In this document: positions 16,241 through 32,640 of the stretch, piece by piece | Numbering within the stretch: the first letter of the stretch is position 1 | Layout: each line of letters begins with the position of its first letter | Source: Eggerthella sp. | GTDB lineage: Bacteria; Actinomycetota; Coriobacteriia; Coriobacteriales; Eggerthellaceae | Direction: 5' to 3' | Assembly: GCA_030540085.1 (NCBI GenBank) | Contig: JAUNWY010000008.1 | Coordinates: forward strand, 1-64,000 | DNA length: 64,000 nt | Made by a program: the position numbers and the translations under genes | Notes under the pieces: generated by a model | Seen by the model: the letters and a program-made list of their open reading frames with translations, nothing else | What the model was told of the DNA's origin: nothing | Databases searched by the model: none

Positions 16241-17296
16241 CTAAGAGGGATTGGCAACAGTATCGATCGCCGTAGCCTCGGGAAGGCCACAGACGATATT
16301 TGCACATTGAACTGCCTGACCAGCCGCGCCTTTAACGATATTGTCAATAGCGCAGGTGGCAACAACGCAGCCAAGATCAGCATTATAGGCGACGCCTACA
16401 TGCGCACGATTCGTGCCTACAACCGAAGAGGTTTTAGGCTGCTGGCCCAAAGGCAACACGGTGACGAACGGCGAGTTTGCGTAGGCGTCGCAGTATCGTC
16501 GATGAATCGACTCAACGGTTTCGTTTCGCTGAGCCTCCTGGGTGAGCTGGATGGTTACCGTGGAAAGAAGGCCGCGGGTTGCAGGGGCCAAATGAGGCGT
16601 GAACACCAAGCGACCCTCGATGCCCAGAATCTGCTCGATTTCAGGAGTATGGCGATGGCTGGCAACGCCATAAGCCTCCAAGTTTTCGTTGGCAGAAACA
16701 AAATGGGTGCGTGCCGTAGCGCTGCGACCAGCGCCGGAAACGCCCGAGATTGCATCGGCAACCACGATGCCTTCGGAAAGGGCAATGGCGGGAGCCGCAG
16801 CAAGAGAAGTAGCGGTTGGGTAGCAGCCTGCACAAGCCACCAAGACAGATTCGCCGTTAGCGTGACGCTCGGCAGCGGCGTTCAGCTCTTCGCGATTCAG
16901 TTCTGGCTGGCCAAAAGCGGCAGTAGCAAGAAGATCGGGCGAGGTGTGCTGCACCTTGTACCATTTTTCGTAGGTTTCCTGGCTGCGCAAGCGATAGTCG
17001 GCAGAAAGATCAACCACCGTGACGCCCGAGTCGAGAAGACCAGGGGCGGATTTCATGGCAACCGTATGAGGCGTGGCAAGGAAAACCACATCGCAGTTGA
17101 ACAGCTCGGCATTGTCATGGCGAGAGAAAGCCAGATCGGTTACACCGGAAAACGCCGGATACACGCTTGCGAGGGTTGCGCCTTCATCGGAATTGGAAGT
17201 AATAACACGCAGATCGAATTCAGGGTGTCGCAGCACGATGCGCACCAGCTCTGCTCCTGCATATCCGGCTGCGCCTACGATACCGACCTTCAACAT
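16241..17296 (-). CDS. argC: N-acetyl-gamma-glutamyl-phosphate reductase
   Basis: NADPH-dependent reduction of N-acetylglutamyl phosphate to the semialdehyde. The 351-residue product has the Rossmann start KVGIVGAAGYAGAELVRI and the active-site cysteine in CAGCYPTATS near residue 160. It is the first gene of the arginine operon, with AGAAGG upstream of the ATG. The upstream region 17297-17400 contains a small hairpin (CCTGT/ACAGG), but I could not identify a convincing arginine-repressor box. Confidence 0.96.
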   Translation of the reverse strand: MLKVGIVGAAGYAGAELVRIVLRHPEFDLRVITSNSDEGATLASVYPAFSGVTDLAFSRHDNAELFNCDVVFLATPHTVAMKSAPGLLDSGVTVVDLSADYRLRSQETYEKWYKVQHTSPDLLATAAFGQPELNREELNAAAERHANGESVLVACAGCYPTATSLAAAPAIALSEGIVVADAISGVSGAGRSATARTHFVSANENLEAYGVASHRHTPEIEQILGIEGRLVFTPHLAPATRGLLSTVTIQLTQEAQRNETVESIHRRYCDAYANSPFVTVLPLGQQPKTSSVVGTNRAHVGVAYNADLGCVVATCAIDNIVKGAAGQAVQCANIVCGLPEATAIDTVANPS

Positions 17297-17611
17297 TTCG
17301 CTGAGCCTTCTTTCGATCTAATCGCCCAACGCGGATGCCCGCGCGAGTTCTTTTAATGAAACACCCTGTACTACAGGTTTCTTTAGGGTACTCCAATTCT
17401 GCCAGCTAGGTAACCCTCTCCACAAAAGTATGGAACGGAACTGCGGGCAATAACAACGAGTTCGCGCCGAACAACAACAAGGAAAGCGCGATGCAACAGC
17501 ATCGGGGGCATGCGGGGTGGAGTACGAGTTGGAGCGCGGCAAGGGAATGCGCCGCTCCCGCGCTGCCCCGAGCCCGCTCCAGAAACCCAAAAACAAAATT
17601 GCGGCCCAAAT
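17297..17611. other. Intergenic region upstream of argC
   Basis: This holds the presumed argC promoter. A small hairpin, CCTGT-ACT-ACAGG, sits near 17369-17381, set inside GAAA/TTTC arms. Open frames here are short, Cys/Arg/Ser-rich and lack ribosome binding sites. No further gene is seen. Confidence 0.4.
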
Positions 17612-17752
17612 TGCAACTTTTTTGCGATTAAGGATTGTTGCGTGACCCCCGATCGCGGGCTGGGACTCGAAAATGCAGGAAATCAGCCGCGAAAAGGAGC
17701 CATTCCCGCTTTGCGGGGATGGGAAAGAGTCCGTAATCGCAAAAAAGTTGCA
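17612..17752. repeat. 141-bp inverted-repeat element, copy A
   Basis: Perfect 19-base inverted repeats at 17612-17630 and 17734-17752 enclose 103 bases that can pair further (GGACTC with GAGTCC). The end sequences resemble those of the element at 57771-57898: the shared pattern is TCC, one base, TAATCG, one base, AAAA, then TGCAG a few bases later. No coding capacity is evident. Confidence 0.75.
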
Positions 17753-17894
17753 GAAAAGCCGGGATTTTTGTTTTCACGCTAGGAGAATCGCTGCAACGAG
17801 GCGGATCCTGCGAAAAACATGCAGAATCCCAGCGACGAAAAAGACTGGCGAAAAACGCACGGACACAGCGGCGGGACAAATTACGCATAAGACG

Positions 17895-17932
17895 CACGGG
17901 ACCCAGCCCCGACGATGGGGCTGGGTCCCGTG
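17895..17932 (-). terminator. Terminator of panE
   Basis: A perfect 16-bp GC-rich stem (17895-17910 with 17917-17932) begins 20 bases past the panE stop. The tail (CGTCTT on the minus strand) is poor in T, so termination may be partial. Confidence 0.65.
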
Positions 17933-17952
17933 AAAGAAAGGCGTAAGCAGAG

Positions 17953-18888
17953 CTACTTATTCACGTACTCGCGAATGTAGCGCTCGATACCCGTCACGCA
18001 GGCAACAAGCGTTTCATTCACAGGCGTGGGCACGTTGCACTTGGCGCCCTGCGCCACAACGGCACCATTGATAACACCCACTTCCGTAGGGCGATGCTTT
18101 TCAAGGCTTTGGAGAATAGACGGCTTGAAGCTCTTCGGCAATCCGACGCGCGCCAGTTCAAGCACGTCCATGGGATCGGAATAAGTCAGCTTCACGCCAG
18201 CCGCCTTGGCAACGTCCATGCCCTCCTGAACAGCAGCGCAAGCGCAAGCCACCAGCTTTTCTTCTGCGTACATATCGCCATAAGGCAAATGAGTGATGCC
18301 GCACACCGCACCCGTGGCAACATTGACCAGAAGCTTGTCCCAGATAACACCCATGATGTTGTCGGAAACGATGCAGTGCATGCCCGCCCCATCGAACGCA
18401 GCGCCGATGGCGCGAGTGCGCTCGGTTACGCTGCCGTCAAGCTCGCCGATAAAGGTATCCTTGCCAGGAATGGTGGCCTGAACGCGGCCTGGCTCCAGCA
18501 ACATTCCACCGATATAGGTTTTGCCGCCGATAACATGCTCGGCACCGACGCAATCGCACAACACGTCTTCTGCGCCAAGTCCGTTCTGCAGCGACATCAC
18601 CGTGGTGTTGGGGCCAACAAGCTCGCGGCCCTCTTCCATGGTCTTGGCGGTGTCGAACGCCTTGCACAAAACAATGACCAGGTCGCACGCACCGATACCA
18701 TCTGGCGTGGTATGACCCGAAAGCCTCACGGTTTCCTCTCCTGTAGGCGTTACCATGACCAGGCCTTTTTCATTGATGGCATTCATGTGCGGAGCGCGCC
18801 CCACGAAATGAACCTCATTGCCAGCTTTCGCCAGCGCACCGCCGATGGTGCTTCCCAGCGAGCCAGCCCCTAAAATGCAAACCTTCAT
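17953..18888 (-). CDS. Ketopantoate reductase family protein (PanE/ApbA)
   Basis: A 311-residue NADPH-dependent 2-hydroxyacid dehydrogenase. It has the Rossmann motif ILGAGSLGSTIGGALAKAG at the N-terminus and the family motifs WDKLLVNVATGAV and PSILQSLEKHRPTEV, with NGAVV near the C-terminal helices. PanE itself reduces 2-dehydropantoate for pantothenate/CoA synthesis, but the family contains many paralogs acting on other 2-oxo acids. Its neighbours here are a VOC protein and a MaoC hydratase, not pan genes, so a catabolic 2-oxo acid substrate is possible. Confidence 0.8.
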   Translation of the reverse strand: MKVCILGAGSLGSTIGGALAKAGNEVHFVGRAPHMNAINEKGLVMVTPTGEETVRLSGHTTPDGIGACDLVIVLCKAFDTAKTMEEGRELVGPNTTVMSLQNGLGAEDVLCDCVGAEHVIGGKTYIGGMLLEPGRVQATIPGKDTFIGELDGSVTERTRAIGAAFDGAGMHCIVSDNIMGVIWDKLLVNVATGAVCGITHLPYGDMYAEEKLVACACAAVQEGMDVAKAAGVKLTYSDPMDVLELARVGLPKSFKPSILQSLEKHRPTEVGVINGAVVAQGAKCNVPTPVNETLVACVTGIERYIREYVNK

Positions 18889-19131
18889 TGCTTCCCCCTA
18901 GTTAAACAAATTCAATATCCCCCAACAGGCGCAGCAAAACGCTGCGCCAAGGCGATGCAGCGTAACCGTAGACGGCGGCGCCTTGCCGACTGATGCGAGC
19001 AGAGAAACGCCCCTCTAAGCGTTAAGGCGAGTGCGGCTTCCGCCCACCATGTACCGACTCTCCTACTTTCGCTCGTTGAGCTCGACAGCCAACAAGGTCG
19101 CCGCGGACGGCAACACCCCCACCAGCCGCGG

Positions 19132-19479
19132 CTACTGCCGCTCGTTAATTTCGATGGTTAAACCGAACGGCGCAACAAACCAATTGCGAGGCTTACCTTC
19201 AGCCTGCCTCACACCGGGCTGAGCGTACACCGCTTCCAGAAGAGCGTCCACATCGTCGGCAACCAAACCAATGTGGGAGACATCGCCCGAATAGGCGCCG
19301 CTGCCCGCTTCGTCTCGCTGAAGTTGAATGCCGCCCACCCATGCCTGATTCAAAGGCAACTCGCCCGACGCCGGGTCGGTCAAAGTGATTTCCATACCCA
19401 TCACGTCGGTGAAAAACGCGAGCGCCGCCTCGAAGTCGCGAACCTTTACCGCAACATGCTCAACACACGGAGCCGCCAT
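19132..19479 (-). CDS. VOC (glyoxalase-like) family protein
   Basis: A 115-residue vicinal-oxygen-chelate fold protein. The N-terminus, CVEHVAVKVRDFEAALAFF, is the usual first beta-alpha unit with a metal-ligand His. A later HIGLVADDVDALLEAVY gives the second module, and the protein ends PFGLTIEINER, with a metal-ligand Glu expected. Relatives include glyoxalase I, methylmalonyl-CoA epimerase and fosfomycin-resistance proteins; the substrate cannot be read from the sequence. One base separates it from the MaoC gene upstream, so they form an operon. Confidence 0.8.
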   Translation of the reverse strand: MAAPCVEHVAVKVRDFEAALAFFTDVMGMEITLTDPASGELPLNQAWVGGIQLQRDEAGSGAYSGDVSHIGLVADDVDALLEAVYAQPGVRQAEGKPRNWFVAPFGLTIEINERQ

Positions 19480-19480
19480 G

Positions 19481-19915
19481 TTATTCGCCTTCCACTTCGA
19501 AGAACTTCAAAATATGCGTCGCTACGCACACCACCGTGCCGTCCTGGTTGGTAACAACCACATCGGCGTACGTTTTCATGGCAGCCTCGTCCACCTCTTT
19601 CACGGTATAGGTCGCCGTAAGGGTATCGCCAAAATACACGGGCGCCGTAAAACGCAAATGATCGTATCCGTACGACGCACTGGGAATGGGAGACTCATAC
19701 TTTTGCTGGATGAGGGTCGAAGCCGTGCTGCCAAAAGCAAAAGTAAGCACGCCATGCACGATGCGCGTTCCATACTTCGTGGTTTTCATAAACGCCTCGT
19801 TGAAGTGCATCTGGCTGTAATCGCCTGTGATGCCGCCGAACTGATATACATCAGATTCACTAACCGTCTTCGTGAACGAACAGCTGTTACCAACTTCCAA
19901 AGGTACCTTAGTCAT
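19481..19915 (-). CDS. MaoC-like enoyl-CoA hydratase
   Basis: A 144-residue hotdog-fold protein of the (R)-specific hydratase type. The hydratase-2 signature is recognisable around residues 26-51 as FGGITGDYSQMHFNEAFM, with the catalytic Asp and His, followed by the downstream IVHG. It would add water to an acyl-CoA double bond. The ATG has AAGGGGAT upstream. It is the first gene of an operon with the VOC gene and faces the LysR regulator at 20242, which may control it. Confidence 0.85.
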   Translation of the reverse strand: MTKVPLEVGNSCSFTKTVSESDVYQFGGITGDYSQMHFNEAFMKTTKYGTRIVHGVLTFAFGSTASTLIQQKYESPIPSASYGYDHLRFTAPVYFGDTLTATYTVKEVDEAAMKTYADVVVTNQDGTVVCVATHILKFFEVEGE

Positions 19916-20241
19916 TGCCGATCCCCTTCCTTCTGGCTGCCTTTTTCTTTAGGCGAATGCGGCGTTTCGTTGCCCTTCGGACCAGCTAGTGTTTGGTCAG
20001 GGTTCCCGCTTGGCAATCTGGCCCAAACAACGAAACGCCGCAATTGGCCCTCGCGCAAAACAAGCAACCAATGCGCAAACAATTCCCCGCGAAACCCTTT
20101 GATCTCGCAAGAAAAACGGTACTCCACTTAAGCTTTTACGTCTGCTGCAAAGTATTGGCAGAAGCTGCGCTAATATATGAGCAGGATTCATGATTTCGCA
20201 TATGCCCATTTCACAGGCGCACCCTAAAAGGAGATGGCACG
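19916..20241. promoter_or_regulatory. Divergent promoter region, MaoC gene and LysR gene
   Basis: A 326-base region between two divergent genes, the classic place for a LysR-type regulator to bind. AAAAGGAGAT is the ribosome binding site of the LysR gene. I did not find a clear T-N11-A palindrome by eye. Confidence 0.4.
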
Positions 20242-21165
20242 ATGAACCTCGCTCAACTTACCTATTTCTGCCACTTGGCAAAAACCGAGCACTACACGCG
20301 CTCGGCGGAAAGCCTCCATGTCTCGCAATCGGCCCTCTCCCACTCCATTTCCTCTCTGGAAAAGGAACTCGGATGCCGATTGTTCCGCAAGACGGGACGC
20401 AACGTGCAGCTCACCGACGACGGGCGAATATTCCTGAAGTATGTTTCAGAGGGGCTTGCCTCCATCGACAGAGGCATTGCTGAGCTCGACCGCAGAAGCA
20501 ACGGCCTTTCCGGATCCATCAACGTAGGCGCTATCGCAACGGTACGATCAGGCTATTTACCTGCTGCAATGCAGGACTTTCGCTCTCAATTTGGAGACAA
20601 AACCGAGTTTCATGTATTGCAGGGCGAAACAGCGCCTTTGAACCAAAAGCTTGAGCAGGGTGTATGCGACCTGGTAATTGCAGGGCCCGTCCATAAACCA
20701 GGAATCACCTGCACCACGCTCTTTCATCAGCGCTTGGTGGTAGCGTTGCGTCGCGACCACCCGCTAGCGGCGCTCAAAAAAGTGCGTTACGAAAACTTGA
20801 TTGGCCATACCGTGATCACCTATAGGCGCGGCATAGCTTGCGGAGAAACCCTCGAAGCATTCCTGCAAGAAACCAATGCGCCCCTTAGCAAGCTGACGCT
20901 GGTGCGCAACTATGAAGACGAGGTGATCCTGGGAGCGCTCGCCGTGCATGAATCAAGCGTGGCTCTAACCATGCTCACTTCAAATTTGGCACCCAACCCC
21001 GACATGGTTATCTTGCCGCTCGACGTGGAAGGAGCCGAAGAGTTCTATCCCATTTCGCTCACCCGTCGCGAAGGCGACGCGCTAAACCCCGCCACGCAAG
21101 CGTTCATCGACTATCTGCTTTCGTTCGAGGCCCCCGCCTACGAACGGAGCGACTTCATTGCTTAA
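20242..21165 (+). CDS. LysR-type transcriptional regulator
   Basis: A 307-residue DNA-binding regulator. The N-terminal helix-turn-helix is typical (FCHLAKTEHYTRSAESLHVS, then ALSHSISSLEKELGCRLF). The C-terminal effector domain resembles the CynR/CbbR fold, with GAIATVRSGYLPAAMQDF and a late FYPISLTRREG. The ATG follows AAAAGGAGATGGCACG. It is divergent from the MaoC-VOC operon and convergent with nadE, so the MaoC operon is the likely target. The last codons (SDFIA) are imperfectly repeated 70 bases downstream. Confidence 0.92.
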   Translation: MNLAQLTYFCHLAKTEHYTRSAESLHVSQSALSHSISSLEKELGCRLFRKTGRNVQLTDDGRIFLKYVSEGLASIDRGIAELDRRSNGLSGSINVGAIATVRSGYLPAAMQDFRSQFGDKTEFHVLQGETAPLNQKLEQGVCDLVIAGPVHKPGITCTTLFHQRLVVALRRDHPLAALKKVRYENLIGHTVITYRRGIACGETLEAFLQETNAPLSKLTLVRNYEDEVILGALAVHESSVALTMLTSNLAPNPDMVILPLDVEGAEEFYPISLTRREGDALNPATQAFIDYLLSFEAPAYERSDFIA

Positions 21166-21243
21166 AGCGCCAATTCTGGCATCGCTGGGACTACCATATT
21201 ACCTTGCCCGCAAACGAAGCAACTTCATTGCTCGCGACTCAAT

Positions 21244-23160
21244 TTACGGCCGAAGCGTTTCCACTTCCTTGATCCATGCGCTCGCGCAAGCATCAGAAGG
21301 CATGCGCAGATCGCCTCGCGGAGACACCGCAACACTGCCCACCTTGGGGCCGTCAGGCAAACACGAACGCTTGAACTGCTGCGAGAAGAAACGCCAATAG
21401 AATGTGCGCAACCACTTCAGAATGGTTTCGTTGCTGTAGCGCCCCGCAAAAGCCTCCTTGGCAACGCGATAGATCTTCGCAGGAGGAAAGCACATGCGAA
21501 GCATCTGATACAGGAAGAAATCATGCAGCTCATACGGCCCTACCAAGTCTTCCGTCTTCTGAGAGATGGCGCCGTCTTCTGGAGGAAGAAGTTCTGGGCT
21601 CACCGGCGTATCGAGCACGTCATATAGAACCCCCGCAAGCACTTCATCGGCGCTCGTGTCGGCATAGTGGCGAACCAAATGGCGCACAAGCGTTTTGGGG
21701 ACCGAGGCATTCACCGCATACATGGACATATGGTCGCCATTGTAAGTAGCCCAACCCAGGGCAAGCTCGGAAAGATCGCCGGTGCCTATAACGAAGCCAT
21801 TTGCCTGATTGGCAATGTCCATCAGGATCTGCGTGCGCTCGCGTGCCTGGCTGTTTTCGTACGTCACATCGTGGATCGACGCATCATGCTCAATATCAGC
21901 AAAATGCTGCATTACCGCCTTGGCGATGGAAACTTCCTTGAACGTGGCGCCCAAGCTTTTAATCATGGCAACAGCATTGTTGTAAGTGCGGTCGGTGGTG
22001 CCGAAACCCGGCATGGTTACCGCAACGATGCCCTTGCGGGACAGTCCAAGCATGTCGAAGGCACGCGCCGTCACCAGCAGCGCCAAAGTTGAATCCAAGC
22101 CGCCGGAAATACCAACCACAGCACTTTTCGCATGCGTATGAGCCAGGCGCTTCTTCAGGCCCAGCGCTTGAATGTTCAGGATCTCCTCGCAGCGATCGGA
22201 AAGCTGATCTGCATTGGAGGGAACGAACGGATCCGCGTCAAAGAAGCGCACCAGCTTCATTTCTTCCTCGGCCAAAGCGAAGGAGATTTCGCGGTACTCC
22301 CCCGCATCAGCTGCGGGGAACGTGCTCATACGACGGCGTTCCGAAGCAAGACGCTGTACATCGATAGTAGCCACCTTGATCTCGTTTTCAAACGTGGCCG
22401 ATTCCGCCAGCACGGTGCCATTTTCGGCAATAAGGTTCTGCCCGCCGAACACCAAATCGGTAGTAGATTCGCCCTCCCCAGCTGTAGCGTACAGATAGGC
22501 ACACACCAAACGGGCAGACTGACCAGCTACCAAATCACGACGGTAGCTTCCCTTCCCCACCATTTCATCGCTGGCGGAAAGGTTGCAGATCACGCTAGCC
22601 CCCGCCAACGCATGATGCACGCTGGGCGGATTGGGGACCCACAAGTCTTCGCATATTTCAGCGGCAACACAAAGATCCGCCACGTTCTCGCAAGAAAACA
22701 GCAGGTTGGTACCAACGGGCACCTCTTCGCCGCCGAACTGGACCATGCCCATATCGGCAGCCCCGGACGTAAAGTGGCGCGTTTCGTAGAACTCGTTATA
22801 AGCAGGCAGGTTCACCTTGGGAACAAAGCCCAGCACCTTGCCGCGGCACAGCATGGCAGCAACGTTCAGCAGCTTCCCCGCCACACGAAGGGGCATTCCT
22901 ACCGCAATAAGGGCATCCACCTGGCGTGATTCTTCCGCAATAACGGAAAGGGCCGCCTCTGCCTCGTCGAGCAATTTCGTCTGCCAAAACAAATCGCTGC
23001 AGGTATAGCCCGTAATGCACAGCTCGGGAAGCACCATTACCTTCGCATGCGCTGCGGCCATTTCGTTGATGCATGCAAGAATCGCCTGAGCGTTGGCTTC
23101 GCAATCGGCGACGGCAACCTGAGGCGTTGCCGCAGCAACCGTGATGAACCCGTCTTTCAT
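21244..23160 (-). CDS. nadE: Glutamine-dependent NAD synthetase
   Basis: Amidates nicotinic acid adenine dinucleotide to NAD, using ammonia from glutamine. The 638-residue protein has an N-terminal nitrilase-type glutaminase domain: [18 protein letters not shown] with the catalytic Glu, the lysine region [19 protein letters not shown], and cysteine in [10 protein letters not shown]. An NAD synthetase domain follows, with the PP-loop [10 protein letters not shown] near residue 340. Length fits the long, glutamine-using form. The ATG has GGAGG upstream. It converges with the LysR gene. Confidence 0.95.
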
Positions 23161-23269
23161 AAACCCTCCTCAAGGGACACACCAAAGCAGGTGCGCGTAT
23201 CGTTCCTTGCAATTATAAGGTCGGGAAGGCATGGCCAACTTCACTTTCCCGCTCGTAATCACTTTGGAA

Positions 23270-23305
23270 CAAAAATACGCCCGCAGGAACAACCTGCAGG
23301 CGTAT
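23270..23305 (-). terminator. Terminator of the nitroreductase gene
   Basis: A 13-position stem with one mismatch (23275-23287 with 23293-23305) and an AACAA loop, followed on the minus strand by TTTTTGTT. It lies about 75 bases beyond the stop. Confidence 0.85.
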
Positions 23306-23378
23306 CCAAAAACGCGAATAAGACATTTGGCTTATTTTCCTACTCCCCGAAAAAGAGAAGCGGCATCTGATGCCTCGC

Positions 23379-23954
23379 TTAGCGAATTACGTAACGGGCG
23401 CCCTTCTGCTTGATAGGCCTCGGCTCCATGTCGGCATACCCCAGAACAATAGCGCCAACCAGCTTGCCGTGATCGGTTGCAAAATGGCTGCCCAAGGCGT
23501 TGCCTGCGCGTACCACCGCTTCGACCCAGCATGTTGCAATACCCTTGTCGTATGCGGCAAGGCACATGTTTTCCATGGCGGCGGCAACACTCTCAATGCA
23601 GCTCGGGAGAATCTCGTCAGAGTAATTTGGCTTGTTCAAGAAGGCCAGAATAATGGTCTGCGAACCGCCCATTGCCGACATGAATTCCATGGTTTCCTCT
23701 ACCACTTCAGGGTTGTTTTTGAAGCGCGCCTCAAGTTCCTTGCGGTGAGAAAATGCCGTAGTTCCTAGTTCCGAGAACAGGTAAGCAAGATCTTCCTTTT
23801 TGGTAAGAGCTACAAAATACCACGGCTGCAAGTTCTGCGCCGAAGGAGCACAAAGGCCAGCTTGGATAATCTCTTCAAGATCTTCTTTCGGGATCGGATC
23901 AGGCTTGAACTTCCTAACGCTGCGCCTACCCTTGATTGCCTCCATCAACTCCAT
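23379..23954 (-). CDS. Nitroreductase family flavoprotein
   Basis: A 191-residue FMN-dependent reductase of the nitroreductase fold. The start MELMEAIKGRRSVRKF contains the phosphate-binding RRSVRKF, and LCAPSAQNLQPWYFV follows. A GIATCWVEAVVRAG segment and the C-terminal LGYADMEPRP complete the fold. Such enzymes reduce nitroaromatics, quinones or flavins; the natural substrate is not evident. The frame is open to 24041. The ATG at 23954 has AAAGGA nine bases upstream and matches the family start. Its stop-side terminator is clear. Confidence 0.88.
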   Translation of the reverse strand: MELMEAIKGRRSVRKFKPDPIPKEDLEEIIQAGLCAPSAQNLQPWYFVALTKKEDLAYLFSELGTTAFSHRKELEARFKNNPEVVEETMEFMSAMGGSQTIILAFLNKPNYSDEILPSCIESVAAAMENMCLAAYDKGIATCWVEAVVRAGNALGSHFATDHGKLVGAIVLGYADMEPRPIKQKGARYVIR

Positions 23955-24080
23955 CTCAATCATTCCTTTCTGCGCTTTCGCGCTCCCCTTCACAAGATTG
24001 ATTTCGCTGCGCCGCCGGGCCCCCACGCCCAGCAAACGCAACCCCTCCTGAAAAACCGCTAGTATGCGGCGTTTTCTGCT

Positions 24081-24971
24081 CTATAAAAAACGCTGAACCT
24101 CCGCCAGCAACGGGATAGGCGCTTCCTCGGGAATAAAATGACCGCAAGGAAGGGCACGCCCCTGCACGTTCGTACAGAACCTAAGCCAGCACTGCAGCGG
24201 GCTGAAGAACTTTTCCACCAAACCGTTCGCTCCCCACAACACCAGTGTTTCAGCGGTAATTTTCTTGCCCGCATCAAGGTCTTCCTTGTCAAGGAAGCGG
24301 TCGATGCATTCGCCGGCACGATATTCTTCGCAAATAGCATGGATACATTCCACGTTGTAATGGCGCAGGTATTCGTCGTATACCTCTTGCGGGAAAGCCT
24401 CAGAGGAGGTGTCGTTTTCCGAGTTGTAGCGCCCAATGTGCAGGGCATTGCGGAAGTACATCTTGCGGCTTGAAAGGATAAGGTCTTCCGGGAACGGTTC
24501 ATCCTGCGTAAGCAGATACCAATGGAATAGCGCCTTTGCGAACTCCGCCGAGCTTAAGGCATACATGTCATACGTCGAAACGATATCGAGAAGCACTAGC
24601 TTATTGACTACTTCCGGATGATCGAGCGCCATTCGGTATGCAACACGGGCACCACGGTCGTGCCCCATAACGGAATAGCAGTCGAACCCCAACTCGCCCA
24701 TCACGGCAATGCAGTCTTCAGCCATGATGCGTTTCGAATAGGTGCTGTGATCAGGCAAGCCTTCAGGCTTGTCGCTATCGCCATAGCCGCGCAGATCACA
24801 CATGACCACGATAAAACGATGAGCTAAATCCCCTGCAACCTTATGCCACATAAGATAGGTTTCGGGATGCCCATGAAGCAGGAGAAGGGGCTCGCCTTCT
24901 CCCATAACTACCGCGTGAATGGTTACACCGTTTACCCCTTGGATAAAACGATGCGTTGCTGTTTCAAACAT
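24081..24971 (-). CDS. Alpha/beta hydrolase, haloacetate (fluoroacetate) dehalogenase type
   Basis: A 296-residue alpha/beta hydrolase with an Asp nucleophile (GHDRGARVAYRM, Asp105). Against my recollection of the residues of the Rhodopseudomonas RPA1163 fluoroacetate dehalogenase, every catalytic position is present. The triad is Asp105, Asp129 and His278. The carboxylate-binding pair is Arg106 and Arg109. The halide pocket is His150, Trp151 and Tyr217. Spacing is constant except for one three-residue insertion. The HAICEEYRAG and GHFIPEEAP segments are also as in that family. The expected reaction is hydrolysis of a C-halogen bond in a small 2-haloacid; an epoxide hydrolase is the alternative. 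The ATG at 24971 has GGGGGA upstream. A palindromic operator candidate lies 60 bases before the start. Confidence 0.82.
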   Translation of the reverse strand: MFETATHRFIQGVNGVTIHAVVMGEGEPLLLLHGHPETYLMWHKVAGDLAHRFIVVMCDLRGYGDSDKPEGLPDHSTYSKRIMAEDCIAVMGELGFDCYSVMGHDRGARVAYRMALDHPEVVNKLVLLDIVSTYDMYALSSAEFAKALFHWYLLTQDEPFPEDLILSSRKMYFRNALHIGRYNSENDTSSEAFPQEVYDEYLRHYNVECIHAICEEYRAGECIDRFLDKEDLDAGKKITAETLVLWGANGLVEKFFSPLQCWLRFCTNVQGRALPCGHFIPEEAPIPLLAEVQRFL

Positions 24972-25030
24972 AAGGTCCCCCAACCCTTAAGCTTGTTGCG
25001 ATCGCGCTCATAGATAATCCCCATTAACCA

Positions 25031-25042
25031 TGAACGTGTTCA
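25031..25042. promoter_or_regulatory. Operator-like palindrome upstream of the hydrolase gene
   Basis: TGAACGTGTTCA, a GAAC-N2-GTTC palindrome. On the minus strand it follows a TATACT -10-like hexamer by eight bases. It is the same motif found at 27196, 29232 and 51673. Confidence 0.5.
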
Positions 25043-25060
25043 ATTAGAAGTATACTCCGC

Positions 25061-25093
25061 AAAATGGAACAGGACATCCGAAGATGTCCTGTT
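25061..25093 (-). terminator. Terminator of the ubiD-ubiX transcript
   Basis: A perfect 11-bp stem (25068-25078 with 25083-25093). The minus-strand loop is TTCG closed by C-G, a stable tetraloop, and CCATTTTG follows. It lies about 45 bases past the ubiX stop. Confidence 0.8.
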
Positions 25094-25136
25094 TAATCAA
25101 CTCTTTAGATAGAAAAGGCCGAAAAGCCAGCAAACC

Positions 25137-25697
25137 CTAGCTCCAACGCTCGAAGGGCGGGTAGTTCAACCCGAATCGATCGAATATCTTGCCAATAAGC
25201 TGGTCTTCCATATCGTCGATAGTTTGCGGGTTGTGATAGTACGTCATCATCGGAGGCATCAGCGTTATGCCGGGAACACTTGCCAGCTGCGCCAGATTGC
25301 GCAAATGGATAGCGTTCATCGGCGTTTCACGCGCGACCAAAACCAACGGTCGCTGCTCCTTCAACGTAACATCCGCCGCGCGAAGCAATAGGTTATCGCT
25401 ATAGCCGCTTGCAATGCCCGCAACCGTTTTCATGCTGCAGGGAATAATAACCATGCCTTCGGTTTTGAACGTACCGCTCGCAATCGATTCGCCCAAAGAA
25501 GCATTGCTATGCACATAATCAGCCATGGCAAGCGCCTTATCGAAAAGCTCGGGCTCTTCATAGCTTGCCGTGAGCCTCCCGCTGTCGGTAACCACCACAT
25601 GTACTTCGCATTCGGTGTACTGCTTGAGCTGGCTTATGAAGCGACAAGCCAGGTGCGTGCCGCTTGCACCGCTTATTCCAACAACAATGCGCTTCAC
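25137..25697 (-). CDS. Flavin prenyltransferase, UbiX/LpdB type
   Basis: Makes the prenylated FMN cofactor needed by UbiD-type decarboxylases. The 186-residue protein has the Rossmann-like VGISGASGTHLACRF, the central IIPCSMKTVAGIASGYSDNLL and the conserved LVLVARETPMNAIHLRN. It ends MIGKIFDRFG-like, as family members do. It starts three bases after the ubiD stop, so the two are co-translated. Pairing with an LpdC-like UbiD suggests a dedicated cofactor supplier for aromatic-acid decarboxylation, not ubiquinone synthesis. Confidence 0.94.
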   Translation of the reverse strand: MKRIVVGISGASGTHLACRFISQLKQYTECEVHVVVTDSGRLTASYEEPELFDKALAMADYVHSNASLGESIASGTFKTEGMVIIPCSMKTVAGIASGYSDNLLLRAADVTLKEQRPLVLVARETPMNAIHLRNLAQLASVPGITLMPPMMTYYHNPQTIDDMEDQLIGKIFDRFGLNYPPFERWS

Positions 25698-25700
25698 GCC

Positions 25701-27179
25701 CTACTCCTCGAAATCAGGCAGCCAATGCTTAGGATCCACTTCCTTGAACTGGCAACGCTGGAAGCGATCTTTCTGGCTGTACGGCACCGTGCAATCGAAA
25801 ATGACCTTGCAGGCAATGCCGTGGTCGCGAATCGAAGGCGAACAGGTTGGGTCGTTTGACGGATCAAGCGGATGGCAGCGAACGCCAGGAATGGTGACGA
25901 TGTCCATATCGCCCTGGAAACGCGTGTTCATCGCCCACAGCACGTCTTTGATGTCGAAGGGGTCAACGTCTTCATCAACCAGGAACACATGCTTCAATTC
26001 GCTGAACGCAGAGAAAGCCAACAGGGCCATTTGGCGCTGACGACCCTCGTCGGAAGGCATGCTCTTCTTAATCTGAAGCACCGCCATGTACTTGCCGCCA
26101 CCAGGCGTTGCGCAATACACGTTCTGCAAACGGCCAGGCATGGCCTTTTCAACCATTTGGATGATGCTTGCCTCAGTGGGAATGCCCGCCATGCTTACGT
26201 GCTCTTCGGAAGGGCCGATGCAGGTTTGCATAATGGGATTCTTGCGCGTGGTTACCGCCTTGACCTTGATGACAGGCAGTTCGGATACGGCAGGACCGGT
26301 ATAGCCTGGGAATTCGGGCATAGCCTTGCCCGAATGAGTATTTTGGTCTTCGGCAACGCGCTTTCCAGGCAGCAACTCGCCTTCAATAACGTATTCAGCA
26401 TTGGCAATGCAGCGTTCCTCGATGGTAAGGCACTTTGCCATGCGAACAGGCTTTCCGCGCAGAGCACCAGCAACGTTGAGCTCGTCGTAGCCCAAAGGCG
26501 TGGTAGGCGGCTCAAAGCAGGTTGCCAATTCAATGGCGGGGTCTACGCCAATGCTGATAGAAATCGGAAGCGGCTTGCCCAGCGCTTCAGCCTTTTCGTA
26601 GAACGCGCCGATATGACGAGCGCCAGGAACCATGTAGATGGAAATCTCATCAGGACCCTGTAAACACAGACGGTGGATGGTGATGTCGGAAACGTGCGTT
26701 TCTGGGTCGGATGCGTAGCACATGCCCAAAGTGATATACGGTCCCGCATCTTCTGGTGTATTGGTGGGCGCCGGAACAAGCTTGCGCACATCGAAGCCTT
26801 CTTCGGTGGCAAGGTGCACCACTTCTCGGCATACCGCCTCTTCTTCAGGTACCTCAACGGGCGGCACAGGGTTCAATACCGCTTCGTTGAGCATGAAACC
26901 CAAGCGCTTTGGGTCTGCGTCGAGCAGCTTCGCCACCCTATCGCGACTTGCCAGCAAGCCAATAGCAACACGTGCATCAGGGTGGCCCTTGATGTTATTG
27001 AATACCATGGCTGGGCCTTCTTGCGTGGGACGGGGCACCGTACCGCCTGCGCCGACGTGGCGATACACGCCGCACAACTCGGCCTCAGGGTCTACCTCGA
27101 CGTCGGTTTCCACCAGCTGACCAGGGATCCCACGCAGAAACTCAAGTGCGCTGCGAAGATCGTCAACGTTATTACTCAT
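25701..27179 (-). CDS. UbiD-family decarboxylase, gallate/protocatechuate (LpdC) type
   Basis: A prenyl-FMN-dependent non-oxidative decarboxylase of 492 residues. Long stretches match what I recall of Lactobacillus plantarum gallate decarboxylase LpdC: ETDVEVDPEAELCGVYR, VPRPTQEGPAMVFNNIKG, APTNTPEDAGPYIT, ARHIGAF, FEPPTTPLGYDELNVAGA and GPSEEHVSMAGIPTEASI. TGKAMPEFPGY-like and VDEDVD motifs are also present. The expected substrates are hydroxylated benzoates such as gallate or protocatechuate. The frame is open to 27401 through a repeat element. The ATG at 27179 is chosen because GGAGGAGGGAG lies just upstream. A TATAAT box and an operator-like palindrome precede it. Confidence 0.9.
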   Translation of the reverse strand: MSNNVDDLRSALEFLRGIPGQLVETDVEVDPEAELCGVYRHVGAGGTVPRPTQEGPAMVFNNIKGHPDARVAIGLLASRDRVAKLLDADPKRLGFMLNEAVLNPVPPVEVPEEEAVCREVVHLATEEGFDVRKLVPAPTNTPEDAGPYITLGMCYASDPETHVSDITIHRLCLQGPDEISIYMVPGARHIGAFYEKAEALGKPLPISISIGVDPAIELATCFEPPTTPLGYDELNVAGALRGKPVRMAKCLTIEERCIANAEYVIEGELLPGKRVAEDQNTHSGKAMPEFPGYTGPAVSELPVIKVKAVTTRKNPIMQTCIGPSEEHVSMAGIPTEASIIQMVEKAMPGRLQNVYCATPGGGKYMAVLQIKKSMPSDEGRQRQMALLAFSAFSELKHVFLVDEDVDPFDIKDVLWAMNTRFQGDMDIVTIPGVRCHPLDPSNDPTCSPSIRDHGIACKVIFDCTVPYSQKDRFQRCQFKEVDPKHWLPDFEE

Positions 27180-27195
27180 AGGTTCTCCCTCCTCC

Positions 27196-27221
27196 AGAAC
27201 ATGTTCACAATTATAAGGGAA
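27196..27221 (-). promoter_or_regulatory. ubiD promoter -10 box with operator-like palindrome
   Basis: On the minus strand, CTTATAATTG is followed at once by TGAACATGTTCT (27196-27207, a GAAC-N2-GTTC palindrome), then the ribosome binding site. The site would cover the transcription start, as a repressor operator does. Confidence 0.55.
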
Positions 27222-27247
27222 TAGCCCACTTGTCATTAGCAAGGAAC

Positions 27248-27378
27248 TGGGAATATAGGGACAGGTCCCTATATTCCCACCAAGGCATAGCGCGCAAAGC
27301 AAGAGCCCACTTGCGTAGATGATTGCAAGCAGGCTCTCTTCGTTAGGTGGGAAAATGGGACCTGTCCCTATATTCCCA
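27248..27378. repeat. 131-bp REPIN/MITE-like element, copy 1
   Basis: Bounded by TGGGAATATAGGGACAGGTC at the left (arm 27248-27279) and its inverted copy at the right (27348-27378). Each arm is itself partly palindromic. The interior has a hairpin (GAGCC..CTTGC with GCAAG..GGCTC). It has the same length and arm sequence as the element at 34732-34862. It sits between the transporter terminator and the ubiD promoter. Confidence 0.88.
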
Positions 27379-27413
27379 AAAAAAGAACCCAGAGCGTGCA
27401 CTCTGGGTTCTTT
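27376..27413 (-). terminator. Terminator of the membrane transporter gene
   Basis: A perfect 13-bp stem (27382-27394 with 27401-27413) with a CGTGCA loop and a minus-strand run of seven T. The run overlaps the edge of the repeat element. Confidence 0.9.
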
Positions 27414-27463
27414 CAGGTTTGAAGCCTTTAGCTCCGAGTTTTAGACGTTTCCGTCAGGTGAGG

Positions 27464-28918
27464 CTATTTTTCCTCGTCCTGAAGCTTACCAGCCTTAGCG
27501 GCCTCCAAGCGAGCATGGAGTGCAACCAGCTGGCGCTCAGTCTCTTCATCCTCGATGCGCTGCAGTTCCTTGTTGTAGGCGTAGTCTGCGCGGATCTTGT
27601 CGTTGTCGGAGATGAGCAGGTAGAGGACGATTGCGGCAAGGAAGCCGACGCCACCGCCGCGGGCCACGATGAAGCCTGCGATCATGCCTGTCATGCCCTT
27701 GTCAAGGTCGTCGCGAACCAGACCGAATGCGATCTGCGAGCAGAGCCAGCCCTGGATGAGCAGTACAACTACGAGGAGTGCTGCAGATGCTGCAAGGGAT
27801 GCCTCATACAGAGGATAGACGAACAAACCAAGTACGGTGAACAGCAGGTTGGTACCGGAACCATCGTAGATGGAGTCCATGCCCTGGCGACCGGACTGCT
27901 TATAGCGAGCATAGGTAGCTACGCAGTAAGGAGCGGACAGCGGGCCTGCGAGTGCAGGATAAGGAGCGAACAGGGACAGGATTACATTACGAATACCGCA
28001 GATGACGTTGGTACGGTTCGGGTCGAACTCGATGTACTCGTCGTCGCGAGCTGCCTGGAGACCAAGCTGTTGAACGGTTACGAAGTCGCCGTATGCGATA
28101 ACCCATGCGACCACTGCGTAGGGCAGAGCCGCGATCCAAACGCCGGGATCAGTAGCAAAGCCGATGAACAGAGGCGAAACAACTGCGAACAGGCCCATGA
28201 AGTCAGGAACCTTGATGATCTCGCCGGACCACTGGAAGTTGAACTCGCCAGCGACGCCGCCTGCGATAAGCAGTGCGATAACAGCCCAAAGGAAGCTGTA
28301 GTTGCCGAGGATGGCAACGAACCTGTTGGTGTCCATGTACTTACGTACGCGCTTGGAGAACATGAGCATGAATACAACTACCAAGCCGCAGAGGCAGCCA
28401 ACGGTAACGGTGTCGATAGCGCCGCCGGTCTTCAGGCGAACGGCTACGGCGTTAACGCCAGCGCCCATTACGATACCAGCCTTGATGGCGGGAGGTACCA
28501 GAGTGTTGAGCTTCTTGGATAGGCCTGTTGCACCTAATACAATAAATAGGATGCCTAATTCAAGCTGAATACATGTCAGCATCTGCAATCGAGCAACGCC
28601 TGGGTCGAGCGATTCCAGGAACACGACGATAATTGCCATTGCCGGGGTGATCCAACCGCAAATGGAAGGCTCACCAAGCAGCCAGTTCAGGGTGTACATT
28701 GCCGTTTCAAATACAACCAGTGCCCAAGCCACTGCAGGGTCGAGACCCAAAGAAGTAATAAGAACAGCCAGAGCGCCGTACGAAGTACAAGCATTCATCA
28801 GGCCGGTTACTACTTCAGGTGGTGAGATCTTGAAGTGAATGAACGGAAGACGAATACGGAATAGGCCAACTTTCCAACATGGCTGAATACCACCGTATTC
28901 ACGCTTTAGCATAGCCAT
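27464..28918 (-). CDS. Polytopic membrane transporter, SLC23/SLC26-like
   Basis: A 484-residue integral membrane protein with about 12 to 14 hydrophobic segments and a charged helical C-terminal tail. It looks like a member of the nucleobase/anion (SLC23-SLC26) fold, with paired repeats such as GWITPAMAIIVVFLESLDPG and PPAIKAGIVMGAGVNAVAVR in the first half; DUF3360 proteins are an alternative. The substrate is not evident. Its position beside ubiD/ubiX, and a shared operator-like motif in its upstream region, make uptake of an aromatic acid a reasonable guess. It ends at a strong terminator, so it is not co-transcribed with ubiD. The ATG follows GAGAGGGG. Confidence 0.72.
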   Translation of the reverse strand: MAMLKREYGGIQPCWKVGLFRIRLPFIHFKISPPEVVTGLMNACTSYGALAVLITSLGLDPAVAWALVVFETAMYTLNWLLGEPSICGWITPAMAIIVVFLESLDPGVARLQMLTCIQLELGILFIVLGATGLSKKLNTLVPPAIKAGIVMGAGVNAVAVRLKTGGAIDTVTVGCLCGLVVVFMLMFSKRVRKYMDTNRFVAILGNYSFLWAVIALLIAGGVAGEFNFQWSGEIIKVPDFMGLFAVVSPLFIGFATDPGVWIAALPYAVVAWVIAYGDFVTVQQLGLQAARDDEYIEFDPNRTNVICGIRNVILSLFAPYPALAGPLSAPYCVATYARYKQSGRQGMDSIYDGSGTNLLFTVLGLFVYPLYEASLAASAALLVVVLLIQGWLCSQIAFGLVRDDLDKGMTGMIAGFIVARGGGVGFLAAIVLYLLISDNDKIRADYAYNKELQRIEDEETERQLVALHARLEAAKAGKLQDEEK

Positions 28919-29231
28919 CGCTTAGCCCCTCTCTCCTCTTGCGCATCCCTGCGCAAAAATAAAATCGACCATCTTTCTCCTCCTTCTTTGATTGCATCAG
29001 GCTCACACGTGCACGCTTGCTTACCTAACGCCTTCAACCAATCGGGAAAAGAATTGGAGAGAGTTCTGCTTCACTTGGCTGTTAGAGCTTTTAGCCCCAA
29101 AGGCTAAGCCAAACGGAAATCCCAACTTCCCCCGATCCCTTGAAGATGGTCCCTACTACGAACTATTGCGCCTTGTGCCCGATCCCCCGATGGGCGGCGC
29201 TTAGGTTCAATTGCGATTATTCTCCATTAGA

Positions 29232-29263
29232 TGAACATGTTCTAATTGATTGCGAACGTGTTT
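29232..29263. promoter_or_regulatory. Operator-like palindrome pair between transporters
   Basis: TGAACATGTTCT at 29232-29243 is a full GAAC-N2-GTTC palindrome. GAACGTGTTT at 29254-29263 is a near match, about two helical turns away. It may control either flanking transporter. Confidence 0.45.
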
Positions 29264-29494
29264 TACATAGCTCAGGCGAATGATATTCACTGAAGTTATG
29301 CAAAACGCTCTATCCATCACCCAAATCCACATTTTCACCCCTCAATATCTCTGACATGCGGCGTTACCGTTCTGTCAACCGATTAATGCAAATCGCATCC
29401 ATTGCGAAAGCAAATGAAACCCCACAATCTATTGATTTCCGTTGGTTTCATCGTTTTTCGCACACTTACCGTTTCCTTCTTGACGCAAATAAGC

Positions 29495-29528
29495 AAGATC
29501 CCGTAACTTTTCCCGAGGATCTTTTTTT
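29495..29528 (+). terminator. Leader terminator-like hairpin before the first ArsB/NhaD gene
   Basis: A 7-bp perfect stem (AAGATCC with GGATCTT) is followed directly by a T-run on the plus strand, 120 bases before the start codon. It could be an attenuator or the end of a short RNA from the divergent region. Confidence 0.5.
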
Positions 29529-29648
29529 GGAGTCGGTACGCCAGAGTGGGGCGTTGCTTAGCGCAATGGACGTGTGTTACCCGGGACTCTGTGCTTCAAG
29601 ACGAGAATTCGCATCTGTTCCACCTATATAAGAGAGGAGCACTACGGA

Positions 29649-30935
29649 ATGATCGCCTTAACTACCGCTCAGATCATCGCGATTGTCATCTTCGTCGTCG
29701 TGATGGCACTCATCATTTCCGAAAAAGTGCATCGCACCACCGCCGCGCTTGCAGGCGCGGTAGCCCTAATCCTTTCGGGGGTTCTTACCTTCGATAACGG
29801 AGTAGAGCACATCGACTTCGGAACGCTTGGCGTTCTGGTTGGCATGATGATCTTCGTTGCCGTCGTTAAGAACTCGGGCATCTTCGAGTACCTGGCAATT
29901 AGAGCTGCCAAATTGGCGAAGGGCAATCCCTGGATAATCATGGTGTTGTTCTGCCTTATCACCGCTGTTCTTTCCGCGTTCCTGGACAACGTCACCACCG
30001 TTTTGCTTATCGGCCCTGTTACCTACACCGTTTGCAAGATGCTGGAGATCAACCCCATTCCGTTCTTCCTGACGGAAATCATTTCTTCGAACGTTGGTGG
30101 CACCGCAACACTCATCGGCGATCCGCCGAACATCATGATCGGCTCTGCTACGGGCCTTACGTTCTTCGACTTCTTGGCAATCAATGGCCCTGCTGTACTT
30201 ATCATCCTGCTTGTTTCCCTGCTGATGTTCTACGTAATGTACGGCAAGAAGATGGGCGTATCCGCTGAAAAGCAGGCCTCGGTTATGCAGCTGCACGCCC
30301 ATGAGGCCATCAAGAGCCAGACGCTGTTCAAGAAGAGTGTTGTAATGATCGCCCTGGTTGCGCTTGCCTTTGTAGTACACGGTGCACTGCACATCGAACC
30401 GAGCGTTGTTGCCCTTACCGCAGCAGCCATCATGTTGCTCATCGGCAAATCCGACGTAGAGCACACACTCATGGACGTTGAGTGGGCCACCATCGGCTTC
30501 TTCGCTGGCTTGTTCGTGGTTGTTGGCGGCCTCGCCGAAACCGGCGTTATCGAAATGATGGCCTACGCGCTGATCGACATCACCGGCGGCGACATGATGA
30601 TTACCATCATCGTGCTGGTATGGGCATCGGCCATCATCTCTTCCTTCCTGGATAACATCCCGCTGGTTGCCACCCTTATCCCCATCATCACCACGATGGA
30701 GGCAACGGGCATGGATGTAACGCCTTTGTGGTGGGCAGTGTCCCTCGGCGCCTGCATCGGCGGCATCGGCACGCTCATCGGCGCTTCTGCCAACGTGGTT
30801 CTGGCGGGCATCTCCGGCAAGTACGGCCACCCCATCACCTTCATGGACTACACCAAGGTTGGCTTCCCCATGATGTTGGTATTCACCGCCATCAGCTGCG
30901 TTTACCTGGTACTCCGCTTCTGCGTATTCGTCTAG
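29649..30935 (+). CDS. ArsB/NhaD-type ion transporter, copy 1
   Basis: A 428-residue membrane protein of the ion-transporter superfamily that includes ArsB, NhaD and the P-protein. Family features are LAGAVALILSGVL near the start, the signature LIGDPPNIMIGSA near residue 155 and a second-half AIISSFLDNIPLVATLIP. About 11 to 12 membrane segments are present. The transported ion cannot be told from sequence; Na+/H+ exchange and oxyanion export are both known in the family. The frame opens at 29574, but the ATG at 29649 follows AGAGGAG and starts at the first membrane segment. It is nearly identical in layout to the next gene. Confidence 0.88.
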   Translation: MIALTTAQIIAIVIFVVVMALIISEKVHRTTAALAGAVALILSGVLTFDNGVEHIDFGTLGVLVGMMIFVAVVKNSGIFEYLAIRAAKLAKGNPWIIMVLFCLITAVLSAFLDNVTTVLLIGPVTYTVCKMLEINPIPFFLTEIISSNVGGTATLIGDPPNIMIGSATGLTFFDFLAINGPAVLIILLVSLLMFYVMYGKKMGVSAEKQASVMQLHAHEAIKSQTLFKKSVVMIALVALAFVVHGALHIEPSVVALTAAAIMLLIGKSDVEHTLMDVEWATIGFFAGLFVVVGGLAETGVIEMMAYALIDITGGDMMITIIVLVWASAIISSFLDNIPLVATLIPIITTMEATGMDVTPLWWAVSLGACIGGIGTLIGASANVVLAGISGKYGHPITFMDYTKVGFPMMLVFTAISCVYLVLRFCVFV

Positions 30936-30996
30936 CATCTGGCACCCTGCCGTAGCACACGGCAAGAACGCCCGCAACATCGCATACGCATAGCAC

Positions 30997-31026
30997 AGGA
31001 CCCCGCTTCGGCGGGGTCCTTTTTTT
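30997..31026 (+). terminator. Terminator of ArsB/NhaD copy 1
   Basis: A perfect 10-bp stem AGGACCCCGC/GCGGGGTCCT with a TTCG loop, followed by TTTTTT. It is almost the same sequence as the terminator at 32612. Confidence 0.95.
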
Positions 31027-31255
31027 GTGAATGAATCACCCACTAAATGCCAATCGTTGTTCGCGACCATTTGATGAACGCGTTATTGACGCTTAAATTG
31101 CCTAGCCGTACCCTTTCTATAAGGGAAGTCCGATGCTCATTAGGAGGCCAATGGCCTTCTTTTGTTTTATTGCATCGGTTGTGGGGGGCTACACTTCCCG
31201 CAAGAGAGAAGGTCCGTTTCCCCAGGGAAACGGGGTTAAGTTAGGAGTGGTGTAT

Positions 31256-32539
31256 ATGCCTGAATTCACTACACCGCAGATCATTTCAATAGTGATCTTC
31301 ATTGTGGTGTTCGCGCTGATCATCTCGGAAAAGGTCCACCGTACGGTCGCCGCGCTTGCGGGCGCCGTTGTGCTCATCCTGACGGGTATCCTCAGTTTTG
31401 ATACCGGCATGGAGCACATCGACTTCGGCACGCTGGGCGTCTTGGTAGGCATGATGATATTCGTTGCCGTAGTTAAGAATTCAGGCATATTCGAATACAT
31501 CGCTATTCGAACAGCGAAGATAGCGAAGGGCAACCCATGGGTAATCATGGTGCTGTTTTGTATTATCACCGCTGTTCTTTCCGCGTTTTTGGACAACGTC
31601 ACCACGGTATTGCTTATCGGCCCCGTTACCTTCACGGTTTGCAAGATGCTCGAGTTGAGCCCCGTACCGTTCTTCATCACTGAGATCATGGCCTCCAACA
31701 TCGGCGGCACGGCAACGCTCATCGGCGACCCGCCGAACATCATGATCGGCTCCGCCGCCCACCTGACGTTCATGGACTTCCTGGTATTCAACGGTCCCGC
31801 CATTGTTGTAATCATGGTTGTTGCCATTGCCATCTTCTATGTGATGTACGGTCGCAACATGGGCGCTTCCGCCGAACAGCAAGCCTCCATCATGCAGCTC
31901 CACGCTCATGAAGCTATCAAGGATAAGTCGCTCTTCAATAAGAGTGTTGTAATGATTGCCCTGGTTGCCGTCGCTTTTGTATGCCACAGCATGGTGGGCG
32001 TCGAACCGAGCGTTGTTGCCCTTACCGCAGCTGCCATCATGCTGCTTATCAGCCGCGCAGAGGTAGAGAAAATCCTGCTTGACGTTGAATGGGCAACTAT
32101 CGGCTTCTTCGCTGGCCTGTTTATCGTAGTTGGCGGCTTGGCAGAAACCGGCGTTATCAATATGCTCGCCAATGGCCTTATCGATATCACCGGCGGCGAT
32201 ATGCTTATCACCATCATCGTGCTGGTATGGGCATCGGCAATCATCTCTTCCTTCCTGGACAACATCCCCATGGTTGCTACGCTTATCCCGATTCTGATTG
32301 CCATGGAGTCTACCGGCGTCGACGTTATGCCTTATTGGTGGGCTATTTCCCTGGGTGCCTGCATCGGCGGCATCGGCACGCTCATCGGCGCTTCCGCGAA
32401 CGTAGTGCTTTCAGGTATGTCCGGACGCTATGGCTACCCCATCAGCTTCATGGACTACACCAAGGTTGGCTTCCCGCTGATGCTGGTCTTCACCGCTATC
32501 AGCTGCGCATGGCTCCTGATCCGCTTCTGCGTGTTCTAA
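31256..32539 (+). CDS. ArsB/NhaD-type ion transporter, copy 2
   Basis: A 427-residue paralog of the preceding gene, with the same motifs (LIGDPPNIMIGSA, AIISSFLDNIPMVATLIP) at the same positions. Much of the protein is identical, and the differences look conservative. The tandem arrangement, the matching terminators and similar TTGACGC promoter elements point to duplication of a whole transcription unit. The frame opens at 31133. The ATG at 31256 is preferred, with AGGAG eight bases upstream. A partial palindrome, TGAACGCGTTAT (31075-31086), lies just before a TTGACG element in its leader. Confidence 0.88.
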   Translation: MPEFTTPQIISIVIFIVVFALIISEKVHRTVAALAGAVVLILTGILSFDTGMEHIDFGTLGVLVGMMIFVAVVKNSGIFEYIAIRTAKIAKGNPWVIMVLFCIITAVLSAFLDNVTTVLLIGPVTFTVCKMLELSPVPFFITEIMASNIGGTATLIGDPPNIMIGSAAHLTFMDFLVFNGPAIVVIMVVAIAIFYVMYGRNMGASAEQQASIMQLHAHEAIKDKSLFNKSVVMIALVAVAFVCHSMVGVEPSVVALTAAAIMLLISRAEVEKILLDVEWATIGFFAGLFIVVGGLAETGVINMLANGLIDITGGDMLITIIVLVWASAIISSFLDNIPMVATLIPILIAMESTGVDVMPYWWAISLGACIGGIGTLIGASANVVLSGMSGRYGYPISFMDYTKVGFPLMLVFTAISCAWLLIRFCVF

Positions 32540-32611
32540 GATTTCAGCTGCTTAGCACATATGCAAACCGCTTAGGTTTTGCCGTAATCTGACGAAGCAA
32601 GCATGACCACA

Positions 32612-32640
32612 AGGACCCCGCTTCTGCGGGGTCCTTTTTT
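32612..32640 (+). terminator. Terminator of ArsB/NhaD copy 2
   Basis: A perfect 10-bp stem AGGACCCCGC/GCGGGGTCCT with a TTCT loop and a run of T. Confidence 0.95.

Follow-up and report, generated by a model that had tools for sequence, protein, structure and literature searches.

An alpha/beta hydrolase of the fluoroacetate-dehalogenase family in an Eggerthella genome

An Eggerthella sp. assembly (GCA_030540085.1) encodes an alpha/beta hydrolase, here called P0001, that belongs to the fluoroacetate-dehalogenase (FAcD) family and carries eight active-site residues in register with those of the FAcD RPA1163. Residues, register, fold and family are observed directly; with the catalytic steps drawn from homology, P0001 is probably a cytosolic alpha-haloacid hydrolase, its cytosolic location likewise being that expected from its homologues. 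The closest relatives that we found lie in Oscillospiraceae and Eggerthellales, and within this small clade the halide pocket itself varies.

P0001 belongs to the FAcD family

The gene was found in the first 64,000 nucleotides of contig JAUNWY010000008.1, the whole stretch of DNA analysed, hereafter the window. Its reading frame is intact, with an ATG at 24971 and a stop that ends at 24081:

24081..24971, minus strand: hydrolase coding sequence, P0001, FAcD-family alpha/beta hydrolase, 296 aa (open reading frame, PDB sequence matches, structure model)

The base composition of the gene is unremarkable (G+C 52.0%, against 55.1% for the window). Only general alpha/beta hydrolase profiles of Pfam and NCBIfam match P0001, among them Pfam Abhydrolase_1 at 76.4 bits. 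The silence of NCBIfam on the family is uninformative, because no NCBIfam FAcD model fires even on DehH1. The AlphaFold model, computed from an input alignment of 35 rows, has a pLDDT of 93.7 and a single poor loop at 181-188. The Pfam match, the model and its VIA-align superposition on FAcDs (Z 43-46, rmsd 1.1-1.6 A, 280-291 residues) agree on an alpha/beta hydrolase fold with a cap.

The initial annotation had read P0001 as a relative of the FAcDs, and sequence, structure and phylogeny all back that reading. A search of PDB sequences with P0001 returned 276 distinct sequences at E <= 0.001. The 22 that score highest, at 195-271 bits, are FAcDs or close kin of theirs, and a soluble epoxide hydrolase comes next at 116 bits. 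Alr0039/NOS0089 ranks first in the sequence search (271 bits) and in Foldseek (E 4.5e-37), followed in the Foldseek order by FAcD D4B (9c9f), RPA1163 and FA1, with DAR3835 also among the next matches. A tree that takes four remote hydrolases as its root sets the FAcD family (41 rows) apart on one side of a branch with 99/97 support, and P0001 groups there with the characterised FAcDs. It falls in a five-row clade supported at 100/99 in this rooted tree and at 100/100 in a second tree. Published FAcDs occupy several lineages around the P0001 clade in the rooted tree, and the position of the clade among them is weakly resolved.

The active-site residues are in register and characteristic of the family

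All eight residues named in the initial annotation occur at the numbers given there, and the RPA1163 numbers that it gave (D110, R111, R114, D134, H155, W156, Y219 and H280) map to the 3r3u chain sequence at a constant offset. The codons, with roles assigned by alignment and from the relevant part of PMC11022551, are as follows:

24654..24659, minus strand: codons of Asp105 (nucleophile) and Arg106 (carboxylate binding)
24645..24647, minus strand: codon of Arg109 (carboxylate binding), from sequence and alignment
24585..24587, minus strand: codon of Asp129 (triad acid), from sequence and alignment
24519..24524, minus strand: codons of His150 and Trp151 (halide pocket), from sequence and alignment
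24321..24323, minus strand: codon of Tyr217 (halide pocket), from sequence and alignment
24138..24140, minus strand: codon of His278 (triad base), from sequence and alignment

An alignment out of register would have spoken against the proposal; phmmer instead pairs all eight residues with those of RPA1163 (232 bits, E 9.3e-68). The offset is 5 through Trp151/W156 and 2 from Tyr217/Y219, a net gain of three residues in the cap that agrees with the single insertion originally proposed. The Asp-His-Asp triad is thus present, with Asp105, His278 and Asp129 paired with D110, H280 and D134. So are the carboxylate-binding pair Arg106 and Arg109, which occur together in none of the four outgroup rows, and the halide pocket of His150, Trp151 and Tyr217.

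The aligned sequences indicate that these eight residues are a signature of the FAcD family and so are not peculiar to P0001. P0001, Alr0039, RPA1163, FA1, DehH1, DAR3835 and 9c9f all share the complete set. Activity on fluoroacetate is listed for RPA1163, FA1, H-1, DAR3835 and NOS0089/Alr0039 in Table 2 of PMC11022551, and each of these five members has all eight residues. Among 88 rows (P0001, five earlier loci and 82 scan loci, with L032 and L039 identical in sequence), mostly the best-scoring relatives of a pattern-limited scan, 77 carry the complete set, nine are of a WW type and two of a QW type. With seven reference rows added and the duplicate removed, the counts become 82, 10 and 2 of 94. 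Most homologue rows are the best-scoring ones of that scan (80 genome loci), so these fractions are biased and are not natural frequencies. Among eight remote plasmid rows, the four outgroup rows included, only one has the whole set, and that row is annotated dehH.

The other seven plasmid rows are without the complete set. One of them is a FAcD-like homologue (L130, 3001-3801; 37% identity) encoded on plasmid pSCATT of Streptomyces cattleya, a species that PMC11022551 counts as a producer of fluoroacetate; in this protein one Arg and the Trp of the halide pocket are missing. The titles of PDB entries 4bat, 4bau and 4b9e, a relative from Pseudomonas aeruginosa filed as a putative epoxide hydrolase, describe a T131D mutant and bound MFA, which suggests that the triad Asp is absent from the wild-type protein.

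We further note a change in the loop that holds the gating Trp of RPA1163. The position of Trp185 corresponds to Tyr182 in the phmmer alignment or to Asn183 in the tree alignment, and the loop is poorly ordered in the model. Smaller residues at Trp185 let RPA1163 accept bulkier substrates, according to the section of PMC12955510 on this position. Because the loop of P0001 lacks Trp and is poorly ordered, the enzyme may take somewhat bulkier alpha-halo acids, and by analogy its substrate range can reasonably be guessed to be wider.

Closest relatives and sporadic distribution

Among the matches listed, the closest relatives come from metagenome-assembled genomes of an uncultured Oscillospiraceae member (75% identity), Lawsonibacter (67%) and an Eggerthellales member (52%); a further relative at 67% comes from another genome of the family to which the 75% one belongs. 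A second genome of the window's family (G188) encodes a protein identical to that of the Eggerthellales relative. His150 is replaced by Gln in all three Oscillospiraceae relatives (75, 67 and 67% identity) and retained in both Eggerthellales proteins, and L032, like P0001, keeps all eight residues. The halide pocket is thus not strictly conserved in P0001's own clade.

The gene is sporadic, occurring in two of 138 genomes of the window's family (its own counted), in two of 396 genomes of its class (E <= 1e-20) and in two of 400 genomes of the family of G425. Because P0001 lies near Oscillospiraceae proteins in the tree, this tree and the distribution suggest horizontal transfer between the Eggerthellales and Oscillospiraceae lineages. 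Phage records gave no match to the hydrolase gene region; viral contigs hold two relatives of P0001, at 47 and 41% identity. An empty-site comparison anchored on nadE used the one other genome of the genus in which NadE was matched (G003), where the nadE neighbours are unrelated to those in the window. The taxonomic affiliation of the carrier points to an anaerobic gut life style.

Predicted activity and alternative functions

The best prediction for P0001, which analogy with tested members makes probable, is that in vitro it hydrolyses fluoroacetate, chloroacetate or both; its natural substrate can only be guessed. The hallmark of an alpha/beta FAcD is the liberation of fluoride from fluoroacetate, which such enzymes usually prefer to chloroacetate. 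By homology, Arg106 and Arg109 would hold the substrate carboxylate and Asp105 would attack the alpha carbon in an SN2 reaction, with the leaving halide taken by His150, Trp151 and Tyr217. His278, aided by Asp129, would then activate water, and the glycolyl-enzyme ester would be hydrolysed to glycolate and halide. Several points count against this reading: the existence of close homologues with another residue set (the WW type, 10 of 94 rows), the Gln at position 150 in the three nearest relatives, the fluoride-handling genes that were looked for and not found, and a gene neighbourhood with no haloacid link.

The alternative that survives best, which we nonetheless consider unlikely, is that these gut bacteria have recruited the FAcD scaffold for another small carboxylate, leaving dehalogenation as a slow side activity. 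The Gln found for His150 in the Oscillospiraceae relatives, the altered cap loop without its gating Trp and the isolated, unconserved gene context would all fit such a change of function, as would the wide spread of the FAcD family in the face of scarce fluorinated natural products, as described in part of PMC11139923. Fluoride handling points the same way. In the window genome, which is 80% complete, we found no CrcB, no fluoride riboswitch and no fluoride-type CLC; its sole CLC protein has GGHFFP, where the fluoride-CLC motif given in PMC11139923 is GEVTP. Rfam gave no match in positions 17000-34000 of the window. CrcB is present in 88 of 137 family genomes, including the three other genomes of the genus, and in one of five carriers of the P0001 clade. 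The missing exporter and riboswitch argue weakly against heavy fluoride release. They are weak evidence because a genome at 80% completeness may miss genes. According to PMC12184663, exporters are also lacking within six genes of the HAD defluorinases published from the gut. Against recruitment, P0001 and L032 keep the full residue set, Trp151 included, and activity on fluoroacetate is found in tested members throughout the tree. In FA1, the halide-pocket Trp is described in PMC11022551 as needed for C-F but not for C-Cl cleavage.

Far less probable is a function as epoxide hydrolase, haloalkane dehalogenase or esterase, with nothing but the superfamily fold in common with the FAcDs. The profile matches are indeed general, and a group of near PDB matches (4b9a, Z 41.5) bears the title putative epoxide hydrolase. 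The entries 4b9e and 4bau, however, are named 'putative' and by their titles hold bound MFA. The best soluble epoxide hydrolase chain stays at 116 bits, below the 195-271 bits of the FAcD group, and a soluble epoxide hydrolase was rejected on this comparison. A haloalkane dehalogenase was set aside as well, the NCBIfam models giving 55.2, 43.6 and 40.2 bits where their cut-offs demand 241, 466 and 265. We also discarded an L-2-haloacid dehalogenase of the HAD superfamily: the listed Pfam and NCBIfam matches include no HAD model, and the structure model aligns with alpha/beta FAcDs over 1-296.

Genomic neighbourhood

Upstream of the hydrolase gene, positions 25137-28918 of the minus strand hold one run of genes for a UbiX flavin prenyltransferase, a UbiD-family decarboxylase (VdcC-like, 475 bits against a cut-off of 650) and a weakly matched permease of xanthine/uracil type, which judging by these matches is probably a hydroxyaryl acid decarboxylase module. 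Hairpins flank the hydrolase gene:

25068..25093, minus strand: 11-bp perfect hairpin with a UUCG loop (cUUCGg) between ubiX and the hydrolase gene; terminator-like, with a weak T tail
24091..24109, minus strand: terminator-like hairpin with a T run, overlapping the hydrolase gene end (consensus scan)

The first has a folding energy of -19.9 kcal/mol for a 71-nt stretch (z -3.16) and is absent from the list of the consensus terminator scan; that scan found 12 T-tailed hairpin sites where shuffles gave 7.3, and is thus weak evidence. The neighbours differ from the window's in all four relatives sampled (L037, L038/L127, L126 and L128), comprising a ParB gene (L126, L038), a sulphite/nitrite reductase (L037) and a HypB-like gene with a PLP enzyme gene (L128). 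No haloacid-linked neighbour of the hydrolase gene was found with Pfam and NCBIfam profiles.

The link to aromatic-acid decarboxylation drawn in the initial annotation therefore finds no support: given the hairpins and the different neighbours in relatives, the UbiD neighbourhood is most likely coincidental. That P0001 is an accessory enzyme of the UbiX/UbiD module is the least credible of the alternatives, suggested by the UbiX and VdcC-like matches next door and by the 165-base gap that separates the hydrolase start codon from the stop codon of ubiX on the same strand; the hairpin in that gap and the different neighbours in the four relatives sampled speak against it.

Other features deserve mention in their own right. 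In two Oscillospiraceae the FAcD-like gene stands divergently beside the ParB gene in a conserved place (L126, 7390-9296; L038, 5003-6888). In the window, positions 29640-30935 and 31250-32539 of the plus strand encode two similar, adjacent ion transporters of CitMHS/ArsB type, an apparent tandem duplication. The protein of 33501-33875 (minus strand) is, on its profile matches, most likely an ordinary PaaI-like 4HBT thioesterase; an FlK identity was rejected, the fluoroacetyl-CoA thioesterase model giving 21.6 bits, below its cut-off of 27, and the general 4HBT model 48.4.

Significance

The novelty originally assumed for defluorination in such a bacterium is reduced by published work. HAD enzymes of gut Coriobacteriia hydrolyse fluoroacetate in vitro, with no fluoride release detected from Gordonibacter cultures in the experiments that PMC12184663 describes. 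Fluoroacetate degradation is also published for anaerobic Synergistota of the rumen, whose route PMC12366334 describes as reductive. Fluoroacetate is also a product of 5-fluorouracil (PMC12184663, in the passage on this drug). Searches of the open-access literature listed no alpha/beta FAcD from either Eggerthellales or Oscillospiraceae. The new elements are this FAcD type in an Eggerthellales/Oscillospiraceae clade and the natural His/Gln pair.

If active, P0001 would represent a second hydrolytic defluorinase superfamily in gut Coriobacteriia and Bacillota, and the natural pair of His150 in P0001 and Gln150 in relatives 67-75% identical to it would probe the part of the halide-pocket histidine in C-F versus C-Cl cleavage. 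More tentatively, and with considerable doubt, Eggerthellales and Oscillospiraceae might share a horizontally spread clade of FAcD type, marked by a remodelled cap without Trp and by a halide pocket in which Gln has naturally replaced His. In the anaerobic gut its enzymes would hydrolyse the C-F or C-Cl bonds of alpha-halo acids that come from the diet or from drugs. Such a route would be distinct both from the reductive one of Synergistota and from the HAD enzymes of Gordonibacter.

Comparison with known systems

Alr0039/NOS0089 of Nostoc (PDB 3QYJ) is the closest match in fold (Foldseek rank 1) and has all eight residues at 45% identity to P0001. The cap loop of P0001 is longer and Trp-less by comparison, and Leu replaces Ile at the position of RPA1163 I253. 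Alr0039/NOS0089 is active on both fluoroacetate and difluoroacetate, as tabulated in PMC11022551 (Table 2). RPA1163 of Rhodopseudomonas palustris (3R3U) has the eight residues too, in register, at 42% identity and Z 43-45, whereas P0001 has three more residues in the cap, His for F40, Ala for K152 and, by alignment, Tyr or Asn for W185.

FAcD D4B of Delftia acidovorans D4B (9C9F), which we take to be DeHa4 of the gut-defluorinase study, has all eight residues at 46% identity and, like P0001, is without Trp at the W185 position; its source is a Delftia strain, unlike the presumed gut-anaerobe host of P0001. DehH1 (H-1) of Delftia acidovorans also has all eight residues, at 40% identity. Its gene lies on the conjugative plasmid pUO1 near transposase genes and a crcB about 1.2 kb away, a setting that the P0001 gene does not share. 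The putative acyltransferase 4NVR of Salmonella enterica, a WW-type protein, shares the fold (Z 45.0) and seven of the eight residues but has Trp at the position of His150. Finally, the HAD-type gut defluorinases, as presented in part of PMC12184663, carry out the reaction predicted for P0001 in hosts that include Coriobacteriia, but belong to an unrelated superfamily.
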